Assembly: GCA_947644625.1 (NCBI GenBank)
Contig: CANRZY010000001.1
Location: forward strand, 1-64,000
DNA length: 64,000 bases
Source: an uncultured Pseudoflavonifractor sp.
GTDB taxonomy: Bacteria; Bacillota; Clostridia; Oscillospirales; Oscillospiraceae
Reading direction: 5' to 3'
A program made the position numbers and the translations under genes. Below are positions 152 to 42,368 of the stretch, one piece after another. The notes below the pieces were generated by a model, which saw only the letters and a program-made list of their open reading frames with translations, did not search any database and was not told where the DNA came from. Position 1 is the first letter of the stretch; each line of letters opens with the position of its first letter.

Positions 152-1417
152 TCACCTTACAAAAGTGGTAGCAGCGGCCCGGTGAATGGGCTGGTGGGGC
201 TGCTCCAGGCGCAGACCCACCAGATATCCTCCGACAGCCAGCAGTACGGCAATAGCTATTGCCGTCAGGAGCAGACTCCACCGAAAGGGCACCGGAGCGT
301 TGAGCCCCTGACCACCGGAGGTAAGGCTCATCCCCGGATAGGCCTTGGGGATGGAAAGGCTCCTCCTTTTTCCCCCGCCATCCCGAAAACGCACTCTCCA
401 ACGCCATTCGTTCTCCCGGAATACCTCCAGATCCTCCATAGGCATTACTGTCATGGACAGAATACTGCCGGGATAGATGGCGCCGCTCTCCACGTCGGCC
501 ATAGCCCGGCGGATATTGGCCTTGGCCCGCTCCCGCTCGTCCTCGTCCAGCCGATCCCAGGTCAGAAGCCGGAGTGCCCCGCTTTTGTGGGTAAAACGGT
601 ATGTATCATTCTGATTGAGCTGCGCAAGGAGTACCCTCCACAGTTTTCCCGTTTCCGTACGGATATAGACCGTTCCGGAAGGTTGAACAAGCCCAAGAAA
701 GGGAAGCAACACAAAAAATATGGTCAGAAATACTCCCAGCATAGCGCCCATGGCAGCAAGAACCGGCGCCATGGATTCATCCGGCATCGCCAGAATCAGA
801 AGGAGGATGGCAAAGGCCAGCTGGGAAAACAGGGACAGCAGTATGCTGGCCTTCAAGGGCCGGATCCACTGCTGTTTTGCGATATAGAGCTCCCCTGTTC
901 CCCCCACCTCCCGGTTCTCCTGCCGGGCCTGCCGGGTCATGTTCTCCAACAGCGCCGGATTTACATAACTTTGAAGCCCCCGGCGGCAGGCAAGTACGCC
1001 AAAAAAGCTGAACAGGATAGGGATCAGAAAGAACAGCGGTTCTTCCCTGACCCCATAGGGCCAGGTCAAAAATACGGATACCGCTCCTGACACGGCCAGG
1101 GAGCATACCAAAAGGACGGCCAAGGCGTACCCGCTCTTTCGCGCGCCACGGAAAAGGCGATAGCCCTTCCTGGCTCCAAAGGGGATCAGCAGGGCCAGCC
1201 AGCCGGACACAAAACCGAACAGGCCCGTCAAAAGGGTGGGAAGGGCTCCCACCACAGCTCCCAAAAGGGCTCCCAACGCTCCCAGGGCGTAGCTGCTCAT
1301 GGACTCCGGCTGCCCTTCCGTCCCATTTTCAGGAGCGAAAACACCGCCTCTCCCCGTTTCAGCGGACCGATCCCAGGGATCGTAGCCGCTTCCGTTCTGT
1401 CGGCCCCAACCGTTCAT
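152..1417 (-). CDS. Multi-pass membrane protein of unknown function
   Basis: ORF with several hydrophobic segments; ATG at 1417 preceded by a GGAGGA-type RBS; supplied ORF starts further upstream. Confidence 0.6.
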   Translation of the reverse strand: MNGWGRQNGSGYDPWDRSAETGRGGVFAPENGTEGQPESMSSYALGALGALLGAVVGALPTLLTGLFGFVSGWLALLIPFGARKGYRLFRGARKSGYALAVLLVCSLAVSGAVSVFLTWPYGVREEPLFFLIPILFSFFGVLACRRGLQSYVNPALLENMTRQARQENREVGGTGELYIAKQQWIRPLKASILLSLFSQLAFAILLLILAMPDESMAPVLAAMGAMLGVFLTIFFVLLPFLGLVQPSGTVYIRTETGKLWRVLLAQLNQNDTYRFTHKSGALRLLTWDRLDEDERERAKANIRRAMADVESGAIYPGSILSMTVMPMEDLEVFRENEWRWRVRFRDGGGKRRSLSIPKAYPGMSLTSGGQGLNAPVPFRWSLLLTAIAIAVLLAVGGYLVGLRLEQPHQPIHRAAATTFVR

Positions 1418-3019: not shown

Positions 3020-3062
3020 CAAAAAAGCAAGCACGGGGACCCACACACAATAGTCCCCGCGT
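3020..3062 (-). terminator. Riboswitch expression-platform terminator
   Basis: minus strand CGCGGGGAC-loop-GTCCCCGTGC followed by TTGCTTTTTT. Confidence 0.75.
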
Positions 3063-3065
3063 CCA

Positions 3066-3140
3066 TTTCGCTCGGTAGCTGCCGGATAGGCCGCCAGTAG
3101 AAACTCAGGGTCCATTTCACCCCGATTATACCGAAAGTTA
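3066..3140 (-). ncRNA. Purine riboswitch aptamer, guanine/hypoxanthine type
   Basis: minus strand TTTCGGTATAATCGGGGTGAAATGGACCCTGAGTTTCTACTGGCGGCCTATCCGGCAGCTACCGAG; P1 CGGTA/TACCG, conserved GTTTCTAC J2/3, C-T-A in J3/1. Confidence 0.85.
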
Positions 3141-3318
3141 TTGAGTTGCGAGTACACTGTACCATACCCCGGCAAAAATTGCTACTGTGTATTTCGACAA
3201 GAAGCGTCCCCCTGCCACAAAAAGAATCGTACAAATCGGGAGAAAATTGCTTTTTTTCCCTTCCTGTGCTATAGTAACCTCAGTCTGTAAAGAACCTCTT
3301 CCGATCGGAGGGACCCCC

Positions 3319-9174: not shown

Positions 9175-9198
9175 TCGCGTACCACCTCCTTACCATAG

Positions 9199-9243
9199 CC
9201 AACGGGCCCGGCGGGATGATCCCGCCGGGCCCGTTGGCTTTTT
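9199..9243. terminator. Strong terminator hairpin
   Basis: aacgggcccggcggga-tga-tcccgccgggcccgtt + ggcttttt. Confidence 0.8.
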
Positions 9244-9254
9244 ATGAGAATAAT

Positions 9255-9282
9255 GTAGGGGAGGGGCAAGCCCCTCCCCTAC
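9255..9282. repeat. GTAGGGG-type palindromic repeat
   Basis: GTAGGGGAGGGGC-AA-GCCCCTCCCCTAC. Confidence 0.75.
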
Positions 9283-9328
9283 GGGCCTGTTCTCCGATTT
9301 ATAGTGAAGGGCCCTGTCAGGCTCCAAA

Positions 9329-36652: not shown

Positions 36653-37837
36653 TCAACCAATCTCCCCGGTGAGATACCGCCAGGTATATTCGGCATGGAG
36701 GGCGGCGGCAATGGGAAGGGCCCTCTCATCCATATCCACATGGCCGTTATGGAGGGGGTATTGGGTGTGGGGGTCGTCGCTGCGGGTCCCCACGTAGGCG
36801 TAACAGCCGGGGACAGTAAGGAGGAACTCGGCAAAGTCGTCCCCACCCAGGGAGATGGGCCGGTCGGTAATGAGGGCCTGAGCGCCAAAAAGATCGGTCA
36901 CCACCTGCCCCGCCTCCTGGCAACCCAGGGCTGGATTAATGAGGGGGGTGGCGTAGTCGGTCCACTCCACCCGCGCAGTGCCGCCGTAGAGCCCGGCGGT
37001 CTGGGCGCAGAGGGCGTTCATCCAGTCCTGCACGTTCTTCCGGGTCTCGGTGGTCATAGCCCGGACGGTCCCCTCCAGCACGGCGTTTTCCGCCACAATG
37101 TTGTAGGCGTCTCCCGCCGTCAGCTTCCCCACCCCAATGACCAGGGGATCCACCGGGGAGGTGCGTCGGGTCACCAGAGCCTGGAGCCCCACCACGATCT
37201 GGCTGGCAATATAGAGCGCGTCCGTCCCCAGATGGGGGGTGGACACATGGGCAGCCTTGCCCTTAACAGTAATTTTAAAGTGGTCCACGCTGGCGTTGTT
37301 GGGGCCTTGCTTCACTCCAACCGTACCCACCGGAAGATCAGAGGCCACATGGACCCCAAAGACCCGGCCGGATCCCTCCAAAAGCCCCTCCCTCACAAAC
37401 ACACGGCCCCCATAGCCGATCTCCTCGGCGTGCTGGAAGAAGAGGCGGACCTCTCCGCCAAATTCAGCCCTATGGGCAAAGAGGAGCTTCGCCCCTCCCA
37501 GAAGTCCGGCGCCGTGGCAGTCGTGACCGCAGGCGTGCATAATCCCCTCCGCCTGGGAGCAATATGGCAGCTCCCGGTTCTCCTCCTGGATGGGCAGGGC
37601 GTCGATATCCGCCCGGAGGGTCATGACCCGATCTCCAGGCTTTTCCCCGTGAAAAATGGCGTAAACGCCGGAGCCATCCACCCGCTTATGGTCGGTAATG
37701 CCGATGGCGTCCAATTCTTTCTCGATCCGCTCGGCAGTCCAGAACTCCTGACGGCTCACCTCAGGGTGCATATGGAACTCCCGGCGCAGGGAAGAAAGAT
37801 AGGGAGCCAGGCCTCCCGCCTCTTTTCGAAACTCCAT
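36653..37837 (-). CDS. M20 family amidohydrolase (N-acyl-L-amino acid amidohydrolase-like)
   Basis: MHACGHDCHGAGLLGGAKLL; LRREFHMHPEVSRQEFWTAE; GGDDFAEFLLTVPG; trimmed start 37837. Confidence 0.9.
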   Translation of the reverse strand: MEFRKEAGGLAPYLSSLRREFHMHPEVSRQEFWTAERIEKELDAIGITDHKRVDGSGVYAIFHGEKPGDRVMTLRADIDALPIQEENRELPYCSQAEGIMHACGHDCHGAGLLGGAKLLFAHRAEFGGEVRLFFQHAEEIGYGGRVFVREGLLEGSGRVFGVHVASDLPVGTVGVKQGPNNASVDHFKITVKGKAAHVSTPHLGTDALYIASQIVVGLQALVTRRTSPVDPLVIGVGKLTAGDAYNIVAENAVLEGTVRAMTTETRKNVQDWMNALCAQTAGLYGGTARVEWTDYATPLINPALGCQEAGQVVTDLFGAQALITDRPISLGGDDFAEFLLTVPGCYAYVGTRSDDPHTQYPLHNGHVDMDERALPIAAALHAEYTWRYLTGEIG

Positions 37838-37862
37838 GATAAAGCCTCCTTTAAAAAATAAT

Positions 37863-37933
37863 GTAGGGGAGGAGCTTTCCCCTCCCGTAGGAAATGACCG
37901 ATCCTGAACGGGAGGGGAAAGCCCCTCCCCTAC
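37863..37933. repeat. GTAGGGG-type long inverted repeat, 26-bp arms with 25/26 match
   Basis: GTAGGGGAGGAGCTTTCCCCTCCCGT (37863-37888) and ACGGGAGGGGAAAGCCCCTCCCCTAC (37908-37933). Confidence 0.85.
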
Positions 37934-37981
37934 GATCCCGAAAAAAGAGGCGGGCAAAGCCCGCCTCTCTCTGTTTTTCTC

Positions 37982-38794
37982 TTAATACTCGAAGGCGGGG
38001 ATATAAAGTCCCTTAAAAATCTCCTCAATGGCCTTGGCAGTCTCTGCGGTTTGATAAGCATTCAAAACCTTTTGGTAGGTCTCATTCTCCAGATCGGCGG
38101 TCCGCACGGCAATAATGTTGATATAGGGGTTATCACTGCCCGGCTCTACCTGCTCGGTATAGATGGCGTCGTCCAGGCTCAGACCGTTATCCGAGGCGTG
38201 AGCGCCGTTAACGAAAGCAGCGGCCACATCGGGAATGGCGGAGGCGGTGTAGGCGGCCTCCATCTCCACGAACTCCAGGTTCAGGGGGTTGGAGGTGACG
38301 TCCTTCTGTTCGGGGGTGTAGCCTGCGGCAGGGTCCACCTCAATGAGTCCAGCCGACTCCAGGATCTTATAGCAGCGGCCCCCGTTGGTAGCGTCGGAGG
38401 GAAGGGCGATCTTGTCCCCCTCCTTGATCTGGCTGACGTCGGTGATCTTGTCGGAGTAGAGGGACAAGGGCGCGATGATGGTGTCGCCCAGCACAGAGAG
38501 CTCAAAGCCCATATCGGCAATCTCTTTATTAAGGTAAGCCTTATGCTGGAAGGCGTTCATATCGATCTCCCCGGCGTTCAGGGCGTCGTTGGGCATATTG
38601 TAGGCGGTATACTCCACCATCTCGCATTTGATGTTATCCTTCTCCAGCAGCTTGTTGACGGTATCCCACTGCTCATTGTTTGAGCCCACTACACCCACCT
38701 TCACCACGGCGGCTTCCTTCTTTCCGCCGCAGGCAGCAAGGGACAGGGTGAGCAGAGCGGCAAGGGACAGGGTCAGGATCTTTTTGATTTTCAT
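37982..38794 (-). CDS. metQ: MetQ/NlpA family methionine ABC transporter substrate-binding lipoprotein
   Basis: LTLSLAACGGKKE lipobox; DMNAFQHKAYLNKE; DNPYINIIAVRTAD. Confidence 0.92.
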   Translation of the reverse strand: MKIKKILTLSLAALLTLSLAACGGKKEAAVVKVGVVGSNNEQWDTVNKLLEKDNIKCEMVEYTAYNMPNDALNAGEIDMNAFQHKAYLNKEIADMGFELSVLGDTIIAPLSLYSDKITDVSQIKEGDKIALPSDATNGGRCYKILESAGLIEVDPAAGYTPEQKDVTSNPLNLEFVEMEAAYTASAIPDVAAAFVNGAHASDNGLSLDDAIYTEQVEPGSDNPYINIIAVRTADLENETYQKVLNAYQTAETAKAIEEIFKGLYIPAFEY

Positions 38795-38832: not shown

Positions 38833-39510
38833 TTAATGGGTCGCTTTCTCTGCAATGCGGTTGCCCGCAGCCTGAATGATACTGACCATGATCAGAATGA
38901 TGATAATGACCGTATAGGCTACATCCATCTGCCGCCGCAGGCCGTATGTAATGGCGAAGTTGCCCAGGCCGCCCGCGCCAATGGCTCCCGCCATGGCGGT
39001 AAAGCCGATCAGGGAGACCAGAGTAATGGTCCCGCCCCGGACAATGCCGGGAACGCTTTCCTTCAAATAGACCCGCCACAGGATGTCCCAGGGCGAACAG
39101 CCCATGGAGGCGGCGGCCTCCACCAAACCGGGTGAGACTTCCGACATGGCGCTTTCCACCTGTCGGGCAAAGAAGGGAACCGTCCCGAAAAGTAAGGGGA
39201 TGATGGCTCCCTTCACCCCTGACGCGGTACCGATCACCAGCCGGCTCAGGCCCAGCATGATAATAGCCAGCAGAATGAAGGGGATAGAGCGGAACAAGTC
39301 AATGACCTTTCCCACCACAAGGCTCACAAAGCGGTTTTGCAGCACCCCTCCCGGCTTACAGGCCACCACTGTTACGCCCAGGACCAGACCCAGAAGAAAA
39401 GATATGGGGGCGGAGATCAAAAGCATCTGCATGGTCTCCACAACCGCCTTCCAGAGAAGGTCCGGCTTACTCATCACATTTGGGATGATGGAATTCAAAA
39501 ACTCAGCCAC
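38833..39510 (-). CDS. metI: Methionine ABC transporter permease
   Basis: MetI-like RSIPFILLAIIMLGLSRLVIGTASG; EAAASMGCSPWDILWRVYLKES. Confidence 0.93.
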   Translation of the reverse strand: MAEFLNSIIPNVMSKPDLLWKAVVETMQMLLISAPISFLLGLVLGVTVVACKPGGVLQNRFVSLVVGKVIDLFRSIPFILLAIIMLGLSRLVIGTASGVKGAIIPLLFGTVPFFARQVESAMSEVSPGLVEAAASMGCSPWDILWRVYLKESVPGIVRGGTITLVSLIGFTAMAGAIGAGGLGNFAITYGLRRQMDVAYTVIIIILIMVSIIQAAGNRIAEKATH

Positions 39511-40537
39511 GCTTCAACACCTCCACCATCACATTTTTCTCACTCAAGTAACCAATGGCCTCGGCGACTCTGTCTCCGCTGATAATGGCTACCAGACCGC
39601 CCAGGGGTTGACCGTCGATGATCTCCACATTGCTGAACACAATGCTCACATCCACGTCAAAGCGGCGGGATATCTCGGAGATGGTGGCCTCGCTGGTGTT
39701 GCTTTGGCTGTAGTTGAGCCGGGCCACGATCTCCCCAGTCTTTACGGCCACCAGAGGATCCCCCGCAGCGATAAGCTCGTCGATCTTGCTCAGGTTGGAG
39801 GTGGTGGCGATAAAGGAACGGGTCACCGGCTGCTGGGGATTGGCAAAGACGTCAAACACCGCTCCCTCCTCCACCACATGGCCACCGTCCATCACCGCTA
39901 CCTTGTGGCAGATCTCCTTGACCACTGCCATCTCGTGGGTAATGACCACCACGGTGATCCCTGTCTTTTGATTGATATCCTTAATCAGGCGCAGGATGGA
40001 CTGAGTAGTCTGGGGATCCAGGGCAGAGGTGGCCTCATCACAAAGCAGCACCTTGGGATCGCTGGCCAGGGCCCTTGCAATGGCCACCCGCTGCTTCTGA
40101 CCGCCGGAGAGTTGGGAGGGGTAGGATCCCGCCTTGTCGGGCAGATCCACCAGCTCCAGAAGCTCCTTTACCTTGGCGGCGGTTGCCTCCCTGGAAAGTC
40201 CGGTCCCCTTCAGGGGAAAGGCTACGTTCTCGGCTACGGTGCGGGAGGGCATCAGGTTGAACTGCTGGAAGATCATGCTGATCTTCTTCCGCTCCTGACG
40301 CAGCTCCCGCGACCGCATTCGCGTCAGCTCCCGGCCATCCACCGTCACTGTCCCGGCGGTAGGCTTCTCCAGCAGGTTGATACACCGGACCAGGGTGGAC
40401 TTGCCCGCCCCGGAATAGCCGATGATGCCAAAGATCTCGCCGGGTGCGATATGTAACGTCACATCCTGCACGGCGTGGACTCCGGTGTCCTCGCTGCCAA
40501 AGGTTTTGCTGACATGGTCCAATTTGATCACGTTCAT
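39503..40537 (-). CDS. metN: Methionine ABC transporter ATP-binding protein
   Basis: MNVIKLDHVSKTFGS...GYSGAGKSTLVRCINLLEKPTAG, LSGGQKQRVAIARAL, C-terminal NIL/ACT-like domain. Confidence 0.93.
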   Translation of the reverse strand: MNVIKLDHVSKTFGSEDTGVHAVQDVTLHIAPGEIFGIIGYSGAGKSTLVRCINLLEKPTAGTVTVDGRELTRMRSRELRQERKKISMIFQQFNLMPSRTVAENVAFPLKGTGLSREATAAKVKELLELVDLPDKAGSYPSQLSGGQKQRVAIARALASDPKVLLCDEATSALDPQTTQSILRLIKDINQKTGITVVVITHEMAVVKEICHKVAVMDGGHVVEEGAVFDVFANPQQPVTRSFIATTSNLSKIDELIAAGDPLVAVKTGEIVARLNYSQSNTSEATISEISRRFDVDVSIVFSNVEIIDGQPLGGLVAIISGDRVAEAIGYLSEKNVMVEVLKRG

Positions 40538-40634: not shown

Positions 40635-40670
40635 AAAACAAAAGCGGGAAGCGCTTACGCGCTTCCCGCT
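40635..40670 (-). terminator. Attenuator terminator upstream of metNIQ
   Basis: minus strand AGCGGGAAGCGC-GTAA-GCGCTTCCCGCT (40643-40670) + TTTGTTTT. Confidence 0.88.
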
Positions 40671-40699
40671 TCCTGAAACCAGCCAAAAGCCGTGATTTC

Positions 40700-40792
40700 T
40701 CAGAATTTCCATGCGGAGGCGCGCAAAATCGTGGGCATCGGCATCATCGCCATGTCCATTCCCCGCATCATCATGCCATAACCGTGTGTCAT
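40700..40792 (-). CDS. Met-rich attenuation leader peptide MTHGYGMMMRGMDMAMMPMPTILRASAWKF
   Basis: 30-codon ORF with 9 Met codons; AGGAGG RBS; lies between promoter and terminator of metNIQ. Confidence 0.85.
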   Translation of the reverse strand: MTHGYGMMMRGMDMAMMPMPTILRASAWKF

Positions 40793-40830
40793 GATCGGCG
40801 CGCCTCCTTCCTGAGTGAAATGATTTTTTG

Positions 40831-40862
40831 TTATACTACCATCTCGGTCCTGTTTTGTCAAT
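40831..40862 (-). promoter_or_regulatory. Promoter for leader-metNIQ
   Basis: minus strand TTGACA-AAACAGGACCGAGATGG-TAGTAT (17-bp spacer); coordinates approximate. Confidence 0.75.
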
Positions 40863-40883: not shown

Positions 40884-42368
40884 TCAACCCTTGGAAATGG
40901 TAAAGATAGCCGTAGGGCCGTCGGCGCCGCCGATGGCCTCCAGAGCGGCCTCCTCCCCCATCTCAGCCGCCATCATTTCCATAAGATCCACCACGTTGGC
41001 CCCGGCGGGAGGCTCGGTGGCGGGAGCGGTCTGACCCTGGGCGTAGCTGCCGCTCATGGTCAGCTCCATGGTCATAAGCCCCGCCGCGTCCATGTGCATC
41101 TCCGCCATCATCTGGTCTTTGTCGTCCATAGAGGTGGTCATATCCATGGAAACGGTCATGCCCTCCTCCTGGGCCTCCATAGCCATACCAATGACATAGG
41201 CCGTCACAGTGTCCTGCTTCATGGTCATGGTAAGGACTAAAGTGACGGTGACGCCGTTCTCCTCCAGCTCCAGCACAGCGGTGTAGTCGTCCTCTTCCTT
41301 CAAAAAGCCCTCATCGGAAACGGCGGCTACCACGTCCTCCACCGTACTCTTCACCGTGTCATAAGCAGCAGTGGAATCGGTAAGAGACAGCGTGGAGAGA
41401 GATTGCTTCACAAGGGCGGTGTAATCCAACTCTTTGGCGGCGGCCATAAGCTGGGTCCAGTCCATTCCCATCTGCTCCATCATAGCGGCCATATCCATCT
41501 TATACCAGTCTTCCCCGTTCATGCCGGCGGCGGCCATAAGTTCCCCCTTCATATTCATGTAAAGGGTCCCCAGGCCCATATCGCCCCGCATGGAAAGGTC
41601 AACGCCCTCATTTTTGAGGGCGTCCAGCATGGCCTCGTCCTCCGCGGACAGGCTTACCTCCTCCCCGGTCAGCAGAGATACGCTCTTGATAAGCTGGGAA
41701 AGATCCATTTTCATGTTCATATCCATGCTGAGCTTCGCGCTGTCCTGCATCGTGCCCTCCAGAGAGCCGTTCAGGGTCATGGGCATGGCCATCATGGTCA
41801 TGTTGGCATCAAAGTCGGCCTTCATATCCCAAACGCCTTCGTTATACTTTTTGGAGTAGTCCATCAGCTTCTCCAGATAGGTGAAGCTCTTGCCCTCCAG
41901 AGCGTTGTCCACCACCTTGTCGGTATCCACGATGATGGCGGTGGACCTCGCCTGGTCCCAGCCCACAGCGCAGCCAAAGGCCTGGGCTGCAAAGCGGACA
42001 GGGACATAGGTCCGCCAGGTGGCGGAGTCCACATAGGGAGCCACATCCATAGTGATGGGGGTGGTTGTCTCCCCTTCGGTAACGGTGGCAGTGGCCTCGT
42101 TCAGGGTCATAGTGAGGGTCTTGCCGTTCCTGGCGGCGGTAATAACGCTTCCCTCGCTGGAGACCTCCGCGCCCATGGCCTCAAAGACGGCCCGGAAGGG
42201 CAGGAAGGTGCGCTGGTCCCTCACCTGGGGCACAGCGTCGGTAAAGCTCAGGGGAGCGCCGTCCAACTGGACGGTGATTGCCGTCTCCCCGGCGGCCAGG
42301 GCGGCGGTGGCGCCCAGCAAAGCCCCGGCCATGCCCAGGGCCAACAGCCAACGGATCGTTTTTTTCAT
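40884..42368 (-). CDS. Secreted stalk-domain (copper amine oxidase N-terminal-like) protein with IGGADGPTAIF C-terminal tail
   Basis: signal peptide MKKTIRWLLALGMAGALLGATAALAAG; TFLPFRAVFEAMGAEV and YVPVRFAAQAFGCAVGWD repeats; C-term EAIGGADGPTAIFTISKG. Confidence 0.8.
   Translation of the reverse strand: MKKTIRWLLALGMAGALLGATAALAAGETAITVQLDGAPLSFTDAVPQVRDQRTFLPFRAVFEAMGAEVSSEGSVITAARNGKTLTMTLNEATATVTEGETTTPITMDVAPYVDSATWRTYVPVRFAAQAFGCAVGWDQARSTAIIVDTDKVVDNALEGKSFTYLEKLMDYSKKYNEGVWDMKADFDANMTMMAMPMTLNGSLEGTMQDSAKLSMDMNMKMDLSQLIKSVSLLTGEEVSLSAEDEAMLDALKNEGVDLSMRGDMGLGTLYMNMKGELMAAAGMNGEDWYKMDMAAMMEQMGMDWTQLMAAAKELDYTALVKQSLSTLSLTDSTAAYDTVKSTVEDVVAAVSDEGFLKEEDDYTAVLELEENGVTVTLVLTMTMKQDTVTAYVIGMAMEAQEEGMTVSMDMTTSMDDKDQMMAEMHMDAAGLMTMELTMSGSYAQGQTAPATEPPAGANVVDLMEMMAAEMGEEAALEAIGGADGPTAIFTISKG

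Follow-up and report, generated by a model that had tools for sequence, protein, structure and literature searches.

A methionine-rich leader peptide ahead of metNIQ in an uncultured Pseudoflavonifractor: a very probable ribosome-mediated attenuator that alternates with the methionine T-box in related bacteria

How is the methionine transporter operon metNIQ controlled in an uncultured Pseudoflavonifractor species? In Firmicutes the usual regulator of methionine genes is the SAM-I riboswitch (RF00162), and 13 of the 16 genomes of the genus carry one copy each; in the three loci that were read, including the copy in the source genome, it precedes metK and not metN. The leader ahead of metN lies on the minus strand of the window, by which we mean the whole stretch of 64,000 nucleotides analysed. 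It matches neither the T-box (RF00230) nor a SAM riboswitch at gathering score nor any other Rfam family, which rules out a T-box or SAM riboswitch as the window leader. What the leader does contain is a short open reading frame rich in methionine codons followed by a terminator, for which the first-pass annotation had proposed a methionine-responsive leader-peptide attenuator. Comparison across genomes supports this proposal and indicates that the element very probably regulates metNIQ by ribosome-mediated transcription attenuation, with charged tRNA-Met as the signal.

The anatomy reported in that annotation is real base for base: a TTGACA-N17-TAGTAT promoter, an AGGAGG Shine-Dalgarno sequence, an open reading frame of 30 amino acids with nine methionines (codons 1, 7-9, 12, 14, 16, 17 and 19) and a perfect 12-bp intrinsic terminator hairpin with a GTAA loop and a U-rich tail (Table 1). 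The promoter is near-consensus (10/12) and shares the top score within the 6 kb scanned. Equally exact is the complementarity between the Shine-Dalgarno region (segment 1) and a stretch late in the reading frame (segment 2), which form a perfect 10-bp helix. The terminator 5' arm (segment 3) was named as a second partner of segment 2, which it can be, but instead of CGCGC/GCGCG plus CCGC/GCGG the pairing is better drawn as CGCGC, UCC and GC against GCGGGAAGCGCG, with ten pairs, one mismatch and one bulge. Pfam and NCBIfam identified the three genes downstream as MetN, MetI and MetQ; the NCBIfam scores fall under the curated cut-offs, but the assignment was kept because MetN carries a NIL domain and the operon has the standard order. 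A gene similar to the one upstream of the window leader (Table 1) also lies upstream of the leader in genome G009 (L146).

Table 1. Leader, operon and neighbouring features of the window, in window coordinates
Feature	Position	Strand	Remarks
Promoter	40833..40861	-	TTGACA 40861-40856, 17-nt spacer, TAGTAT 40838-40833, extended -10 TGG; read from sequence
Shine-Dalgarno sequence of leader ORF	40803..40808	-	AGGAGG; read from sequence
Segment 1	40798..40807	-	GGAGGCGCGC; overlaps Shine-Dalgarno sequence, complementary to segment 2
Leader ORF	40700..40792	-	MTHGYGMMMRGMDMAMMPMPTILRASAWKF; ATG at 40792, TGA 40702-40700
Segment 2	40715..40724	-	GCGCGCCTCC; within leader ORF, pairs with segment 1 or terminator 5' arm
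Small hairpin	40675..40699	-	GAAATC...GGTTTC; begins at leader stop codon, inside proposed antiterminator; from alignment A1 and folds
Segment 3	40659..40670	-	AGCGGGAAGCGC; terminator 5' arm
Segment 4 and U tract	40635..40654	-	Terminator 3' arm GCGCTTCCCGCT (40654-40643), then TTTTGTTTT, ending at 40635
metN	39503..40531	-	Methionine ABC transporter ATPase, GTG start; Pfam ABC_tran and NIL, NCBIfam
metI	38833..39510	-	Permease; Pfam, NCBIfam
metQ	37982..38794	-	NlpA/MetQ substrate-binding lipoprotein; Pfam, NCBIfam
Terminator-like hairpin	37946-37968	both	Between metQ and the M20 amidohydrolase gene
M20 amidohydrolase gene	36653-37968	-	Immediately 3' of metQ
Gene upstream of leader	40884-42368	-	Cu_amine_oxidN1 domain, methionine-rich second half, C-terminus IGGADGPTAIFTISKG
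Purine riboswitch	3056-3153	-	RF00167, 40.2 bits
CrfA (Caulobacter sRNA) match	9192-9317	-	39.3 against gathering 38 bits; probably chance

Could such a reading frame be an accident of ATG-rich DNA, as the upstream gene is methionine-rich too? Of 108 metN upstream regions, 34 contain a reading frame that is led by a Shine-Dalgarno sequence and has at least six methionines; by the same criterion there are none on the opposite strand of these 108 regions and on average 0.03 in dinucleotide shuffles. These controls and the conservation in other genera rule out a chance origin of this kind, and for the leader of the window itself chance is excluded by the comparison across genomes. RNA structure alone is an unlikely cause of the ATG codons, since the methionine density is maintained while spacing and sequence vary.

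A search with a leader profile, which was also the means of looking for further leader reading frames in the source organism, showed that each of the 16 genus genomes has exactly one methionine leader, without a paralogue. The codon pattern MMMxxMDMAM has 17 matches among 85,488 species, 16 of which are methionine leaders; 15 of these precede metN by 154-209 nt and one ends its contig. An odd match reads MMMMMMMDMAM (L133, 361-391) and lies away from metN in a Rhodospirillales MAG contig, unrelated to the leaders. Codon differences among the genus leaders amount to 174 synonymous versus 300 non-synonymous, and counts by codon position are uninformative. Within the genus the peptide stretch YGMMM..MDMAMMPMPT is well conserved, as would be expected if the methionine-rich peptide itself arrested the ribosome in response to free methionine or SAM, similar to TnaC and tryptophan. 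Arrest peptides usually retain fixed residues near the stall site, whereas the leader peptides of other genera have little in common beyond their methionine density, and stalling induced by the ligand would turn on an importer in times of plenty, which is the wrong direction. Such nascent-chain arrest is thus very improbable.

The first-pass annotation had suggested a search for methionine-rich upstream reading frames in relatives, and outside the genus 11 further genera of the family, represented by 18 genomes, proved to have leaders with a Shine-Dalgarno sequence and a terminator before metN. These leaders encode 29-43 amino acids with 6-12 methionines (for example MRHIVRIDNMMMGMMMRMGTMGMMMCAPKVDSPSFKSI and MRVFKAYSCMMAMMMYMFRMCPMMCAQNRRSLCFTAV) and have diverged almost unrecognisably in sequence. 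A Shine-Dalgarno-like sequence precedes all 33 metN leaders tabulated, as does a promoter of at least 10/12, for which the shuffles expect 0.28, and in 30 of the 33 a terminator was detected automatically 20-56 nt past the stop codon, the hairpins of L014, L058 and L069 being chosen by eye. Aligned across genera, the leaders share almost nothing invariant but methionine, which makes up 21-29% of the residues, while the C-terminal parts, the length and most residues vary; conservation of the methionine codons, on which the proposed attenuator had been made to depend, held in the form of a density that is kept as the rest diverges. Outside the genus cysteine accounts for 7.9% of leader residues, often in the order Met-Cys-Met (for example L058, L069, L073, L101 and L109), possibly reflecting co-sensing of cysteine or an effect of RNA structure. 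Upstream of metN in L016 and L047 are very short reading frames, MKRFVTTMMMR and MQTQTKKIALSMMMC, which end in MMMR and MMMC, respectively, with a promoter of 11/12 and a downstream hairpin with a U run; they may be minimal methionine leaders and were excluded from the counts.

Leaders of this kind extend beyond the family and beyond metN. Within the order they also occur before metN in another family (L157, L161), and in three genera of a third family they precede metY, the gene for O-acetylhomoserine sulfhydrylase (L156, L163, L165), with a promoter of 10/12 and a hairpin terminator. Since metY is a second, unrelated methionine gene with the same kind of leader, methionine is argued to be the signal. 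In the same three metY loci a small ATG-led frame, ATGGAAAACTATTTTGAAAAG..., starts right after the terminator, ahead of metY. A profile search of 399 genomes of the order recovered mainly similar leaders; divergent ones escape profiles and are revealed only by inspection upstream of methionine genes. Might the reading frame instead encode a small methionine-rich protein with a role of its own, for instance in metal binding, whose transcript the terminator simply ends? Its own promoter, Shine-Dalgarno sequence and terminator would suit such a gene, but the C-terminal parts, the length and most residues are unconserved, the frame always adjoins metN or metY, and a T-box takes its place in sister lineages, all of which leaves this explanation hardly credible.

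This replacement by T-boxes is widespread. Many metN genes in the same family carry a T-box; at E<0.01, 15 loci gave 16 matches. The T-box motif is present in 24 metN loci, 18 of which have GAAC-AUG, mostly at a constant distance, and the AUG specifier is visible in the alignments. No locus was found in which one metN has both a T-box and a methionine leader, and the T-box motif (GGTGGTACC.CG) is absent from all leader loci. On a MetN tree, made by a quick method with a short search, leader-bearing and T-box-bearing genes are interspersed, requiring at least six changes of the leader label, four of which are forced by well-supported branches. L101, which has the leader, groups with L104, which has a T-box (SH-aLRT 86), and shares its genus code with the T-box-bearing L017. 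Because both devices would read the charging of tRNA-Met, these lineages exchange the sensor but retain its input. In L060 a second T-box (626-869, plus strand) faces away from the metN T-box (404-160, minus strand) and is encoded on the other strand from metN.

How could the leader open and close the operon? RNA polymerase would start about 35 nt upstream of the leader ATG, with a ribosome trailing on the methionine-rich reading frame. When Met-tRNA is ample the ribosome would reach the stop codon and cover segment 2, the 12-bp terminator would form, and transcription would end. When Met-tRNA is scarce the ribosome would stall at one of the eight internal AUG codons. With a stall at the last of these its footprint would leave segment 2 free to pair with segment 3 around the small hairpin, blocking the terminator so that metNIQ is made; segment 2 follows the first base of this codon by about 14 nt, a spacing that would fit such a footprint. 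We infer that the leader is transcribed and translated, that the ribosome stalls, in which direction the operon responds, and which pairing serves as antiterminator.

Several lines of evidence bear on these pairings. In the genus alignment A1 the terminator is 98.9% paired and shows compensatory changes, with 12 double-changed cells as compared to 3.6 in shuffles, none of 500 shuffles being as high. Pairing reaches 94.5% in the antiterminator formed by the end of the reading frame and the terminator 5' arm, two of its pairs change on both sides, and its covariation score is attained by 4 of 500 shuffles, which, as in the terminator test, do not keep ancestry; covariation thus seems to lend moderate support to the antiterminator. 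When only the RNA downstream of a ribosome halted at the last methionine codon was folded, before the terminator 3' arm is made, the terminator 5' arm paired with upstream sequence at a mean of 0.78 in the genus and 0.75 in the others. Shuffling the intervening sequence lowered these values to 0.58 and 0.62, and placing the ribosome at the stop codon instead lowered them to 0.38 and 0.37. For 32 of the 33 leaders the value with the stalled ribosome exceeds the mean of their own shuffles; the averages are modest, with 11 of the 33 individually at p<0.1, and partly due to shared ancestry. As a family-wide statistic the duplex of leader end and terminator arm was rejected: in other genera only 1 of 18 leaders (L045) exceeds shuffles at p<0.05. 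On balance the folds and alignments slightly favour the specific antiterminator as drawn, segment 2 with segment 3.

Segment 2 also faces its other partner. In equilibrium folds of the whole leader the helix of segment 2 with the Shine-Dalgarno sequence outcompetes the pairing with segment 3 even when a ribosome masks the methionine codons. As judged from such folding models, this is where the proposed mechanism is weakest, and it implies that antitermination needs a Shine-Dalgarno sequence occupied by a second ribosome or a 30S subunit behind the first, or kinetic effects. The helix between GGAGGCGCGC and GCGCGCCTCC is stronger than its shuffled counterparts in 12 of 15 genus members (p<=0.05), which partly supports the sequestration suggested in the first-pass annotation, but no compensatory change was found and outside the genus the pairing is mostly non-significant. 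Sequestration as a general feature of the leaders was for these reasons rejected, and within the genus a functional role for it is somewhat doubtful. It could be imagined that the switch is not stalling at internal codons at all but whether the leader is translated or not, with segment 1 and segment 2 pairing in competition with translation and the supply of fMet-tRNA or the sequestration of the Shine-Dalgarno sequence setting the outcome. The perfect 10-bp helix, its dominance in equilibrium folds and its strength in the genus would agree with such a switch, which leaves unexplained why 6-12 internal methionine codons are retained amid general divergence and which shares the lack of covariation and of significance outside the genus; it is quite improbable. 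Within an attenuator that works by stalling, the helix has a plausible part nonetheless: segment 2 folded onto its own Shine-Dalgarno sequence should, in this genus, favour termination and make it the default when the leader is untranslated.

How does an attenuator work when the amino acid that it senses also starts its leader? Since methionine both initiates the leader and would be the amino acid that is sensed, a device with two phases is conceivable, in which a moderate shortage of Met-tRNA would stall elongation at the eight internal AUG codons and open metNIQ, whereas a severe shortage would also halt initiation on the leader, whereupon the Shine-Dalgarno sequence would fold onto segment 2 and shut transcription again. 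Taken jointly with a sensing of cysteine as well as methionine outside the genus, this reading is speculative and rather unlikely.

Attenuators with leader peptides for amino acids are textbook knowledge. The classical examples (trpL, hisL, leuL, thrL and pheL; Rfam Trp, His, Leu, Thr and Phe leaders) share with the element described here a short Shine-Dalgarno-led reading frame in which codons for the regulated amino acid are frequent, an intrinsic terminator, amino-acid genes downstream and, as predicted here, an overlapping alternative pairing. They differ in that the codon here is that of the amino acid with which translation starts, no Rfam family matches, the host belongs to the Firmicutes (Oscillospiraceae), and segment 1 is the Shine-Dalgarno sequence and not part of the codon run. 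The SAM-I riboswitch senses SAM, not Met-tRNA, and stands before metK in the loci read. Also comparable is the Met-specific T-box (RF00230), which in close relatives likewise takes the charging of tRNA-Met as input and a terminator before metN as output, but reads uncharged tRNA directly through RNA structure, has no leader reading frame and is absent from the window leader. A precedent for such a swap among Firmicutes is the histidine leader that stands in for a T-box at hisS in bacilli, differing in amino acid, genes (hisS/hisZ) and host (PMC2965389).

No methionine leader peptide has been reported for Clostridia in the open-access papers searched. A description of the element as little known thus appears fair, only single predicted methionine leaders having been found, in Streptomyces lividans and Campylobacter jejuni. 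The predicted metL of S. lividans precedes the same operon, metNIQ, but its peptide MSTTSDRTPATEATTTPGARCMCRRMCAF is leaderless, has three methionines including the start, no clear terminator and no visible similarity, and is known from one genome (PMC8079986). Methionine-codon leaders have likewise been predicted ahead of methionine genes in C. jejuni, namely MetL before metBA, whose initiation was observed by TIS profiling, and CJsORF19 (MMYQMR) before a D-methionine transporter gene; they belong to another phylum, and the former has 20 amino acids with three methionines and is confined to a few Campylobacter species while the latter has six amino acids (PMC3847290, PMC11955535). As far as papers could be searched, methionine-codon attenuators have so far been isolated predictions, while here the leaders make up a large family that recurs among gut Firmicutes and takes the place of the methionine T-box at the same gene, so that the exchange of an RNA that reads tRNA for one that is read by the ribosome can be tested in sister species. 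The sequence comparisons support well the view that these leaders represent a new lineage of a known kind of attenuator, one for which the comparative evidence is much stronger than for the earlier examples.
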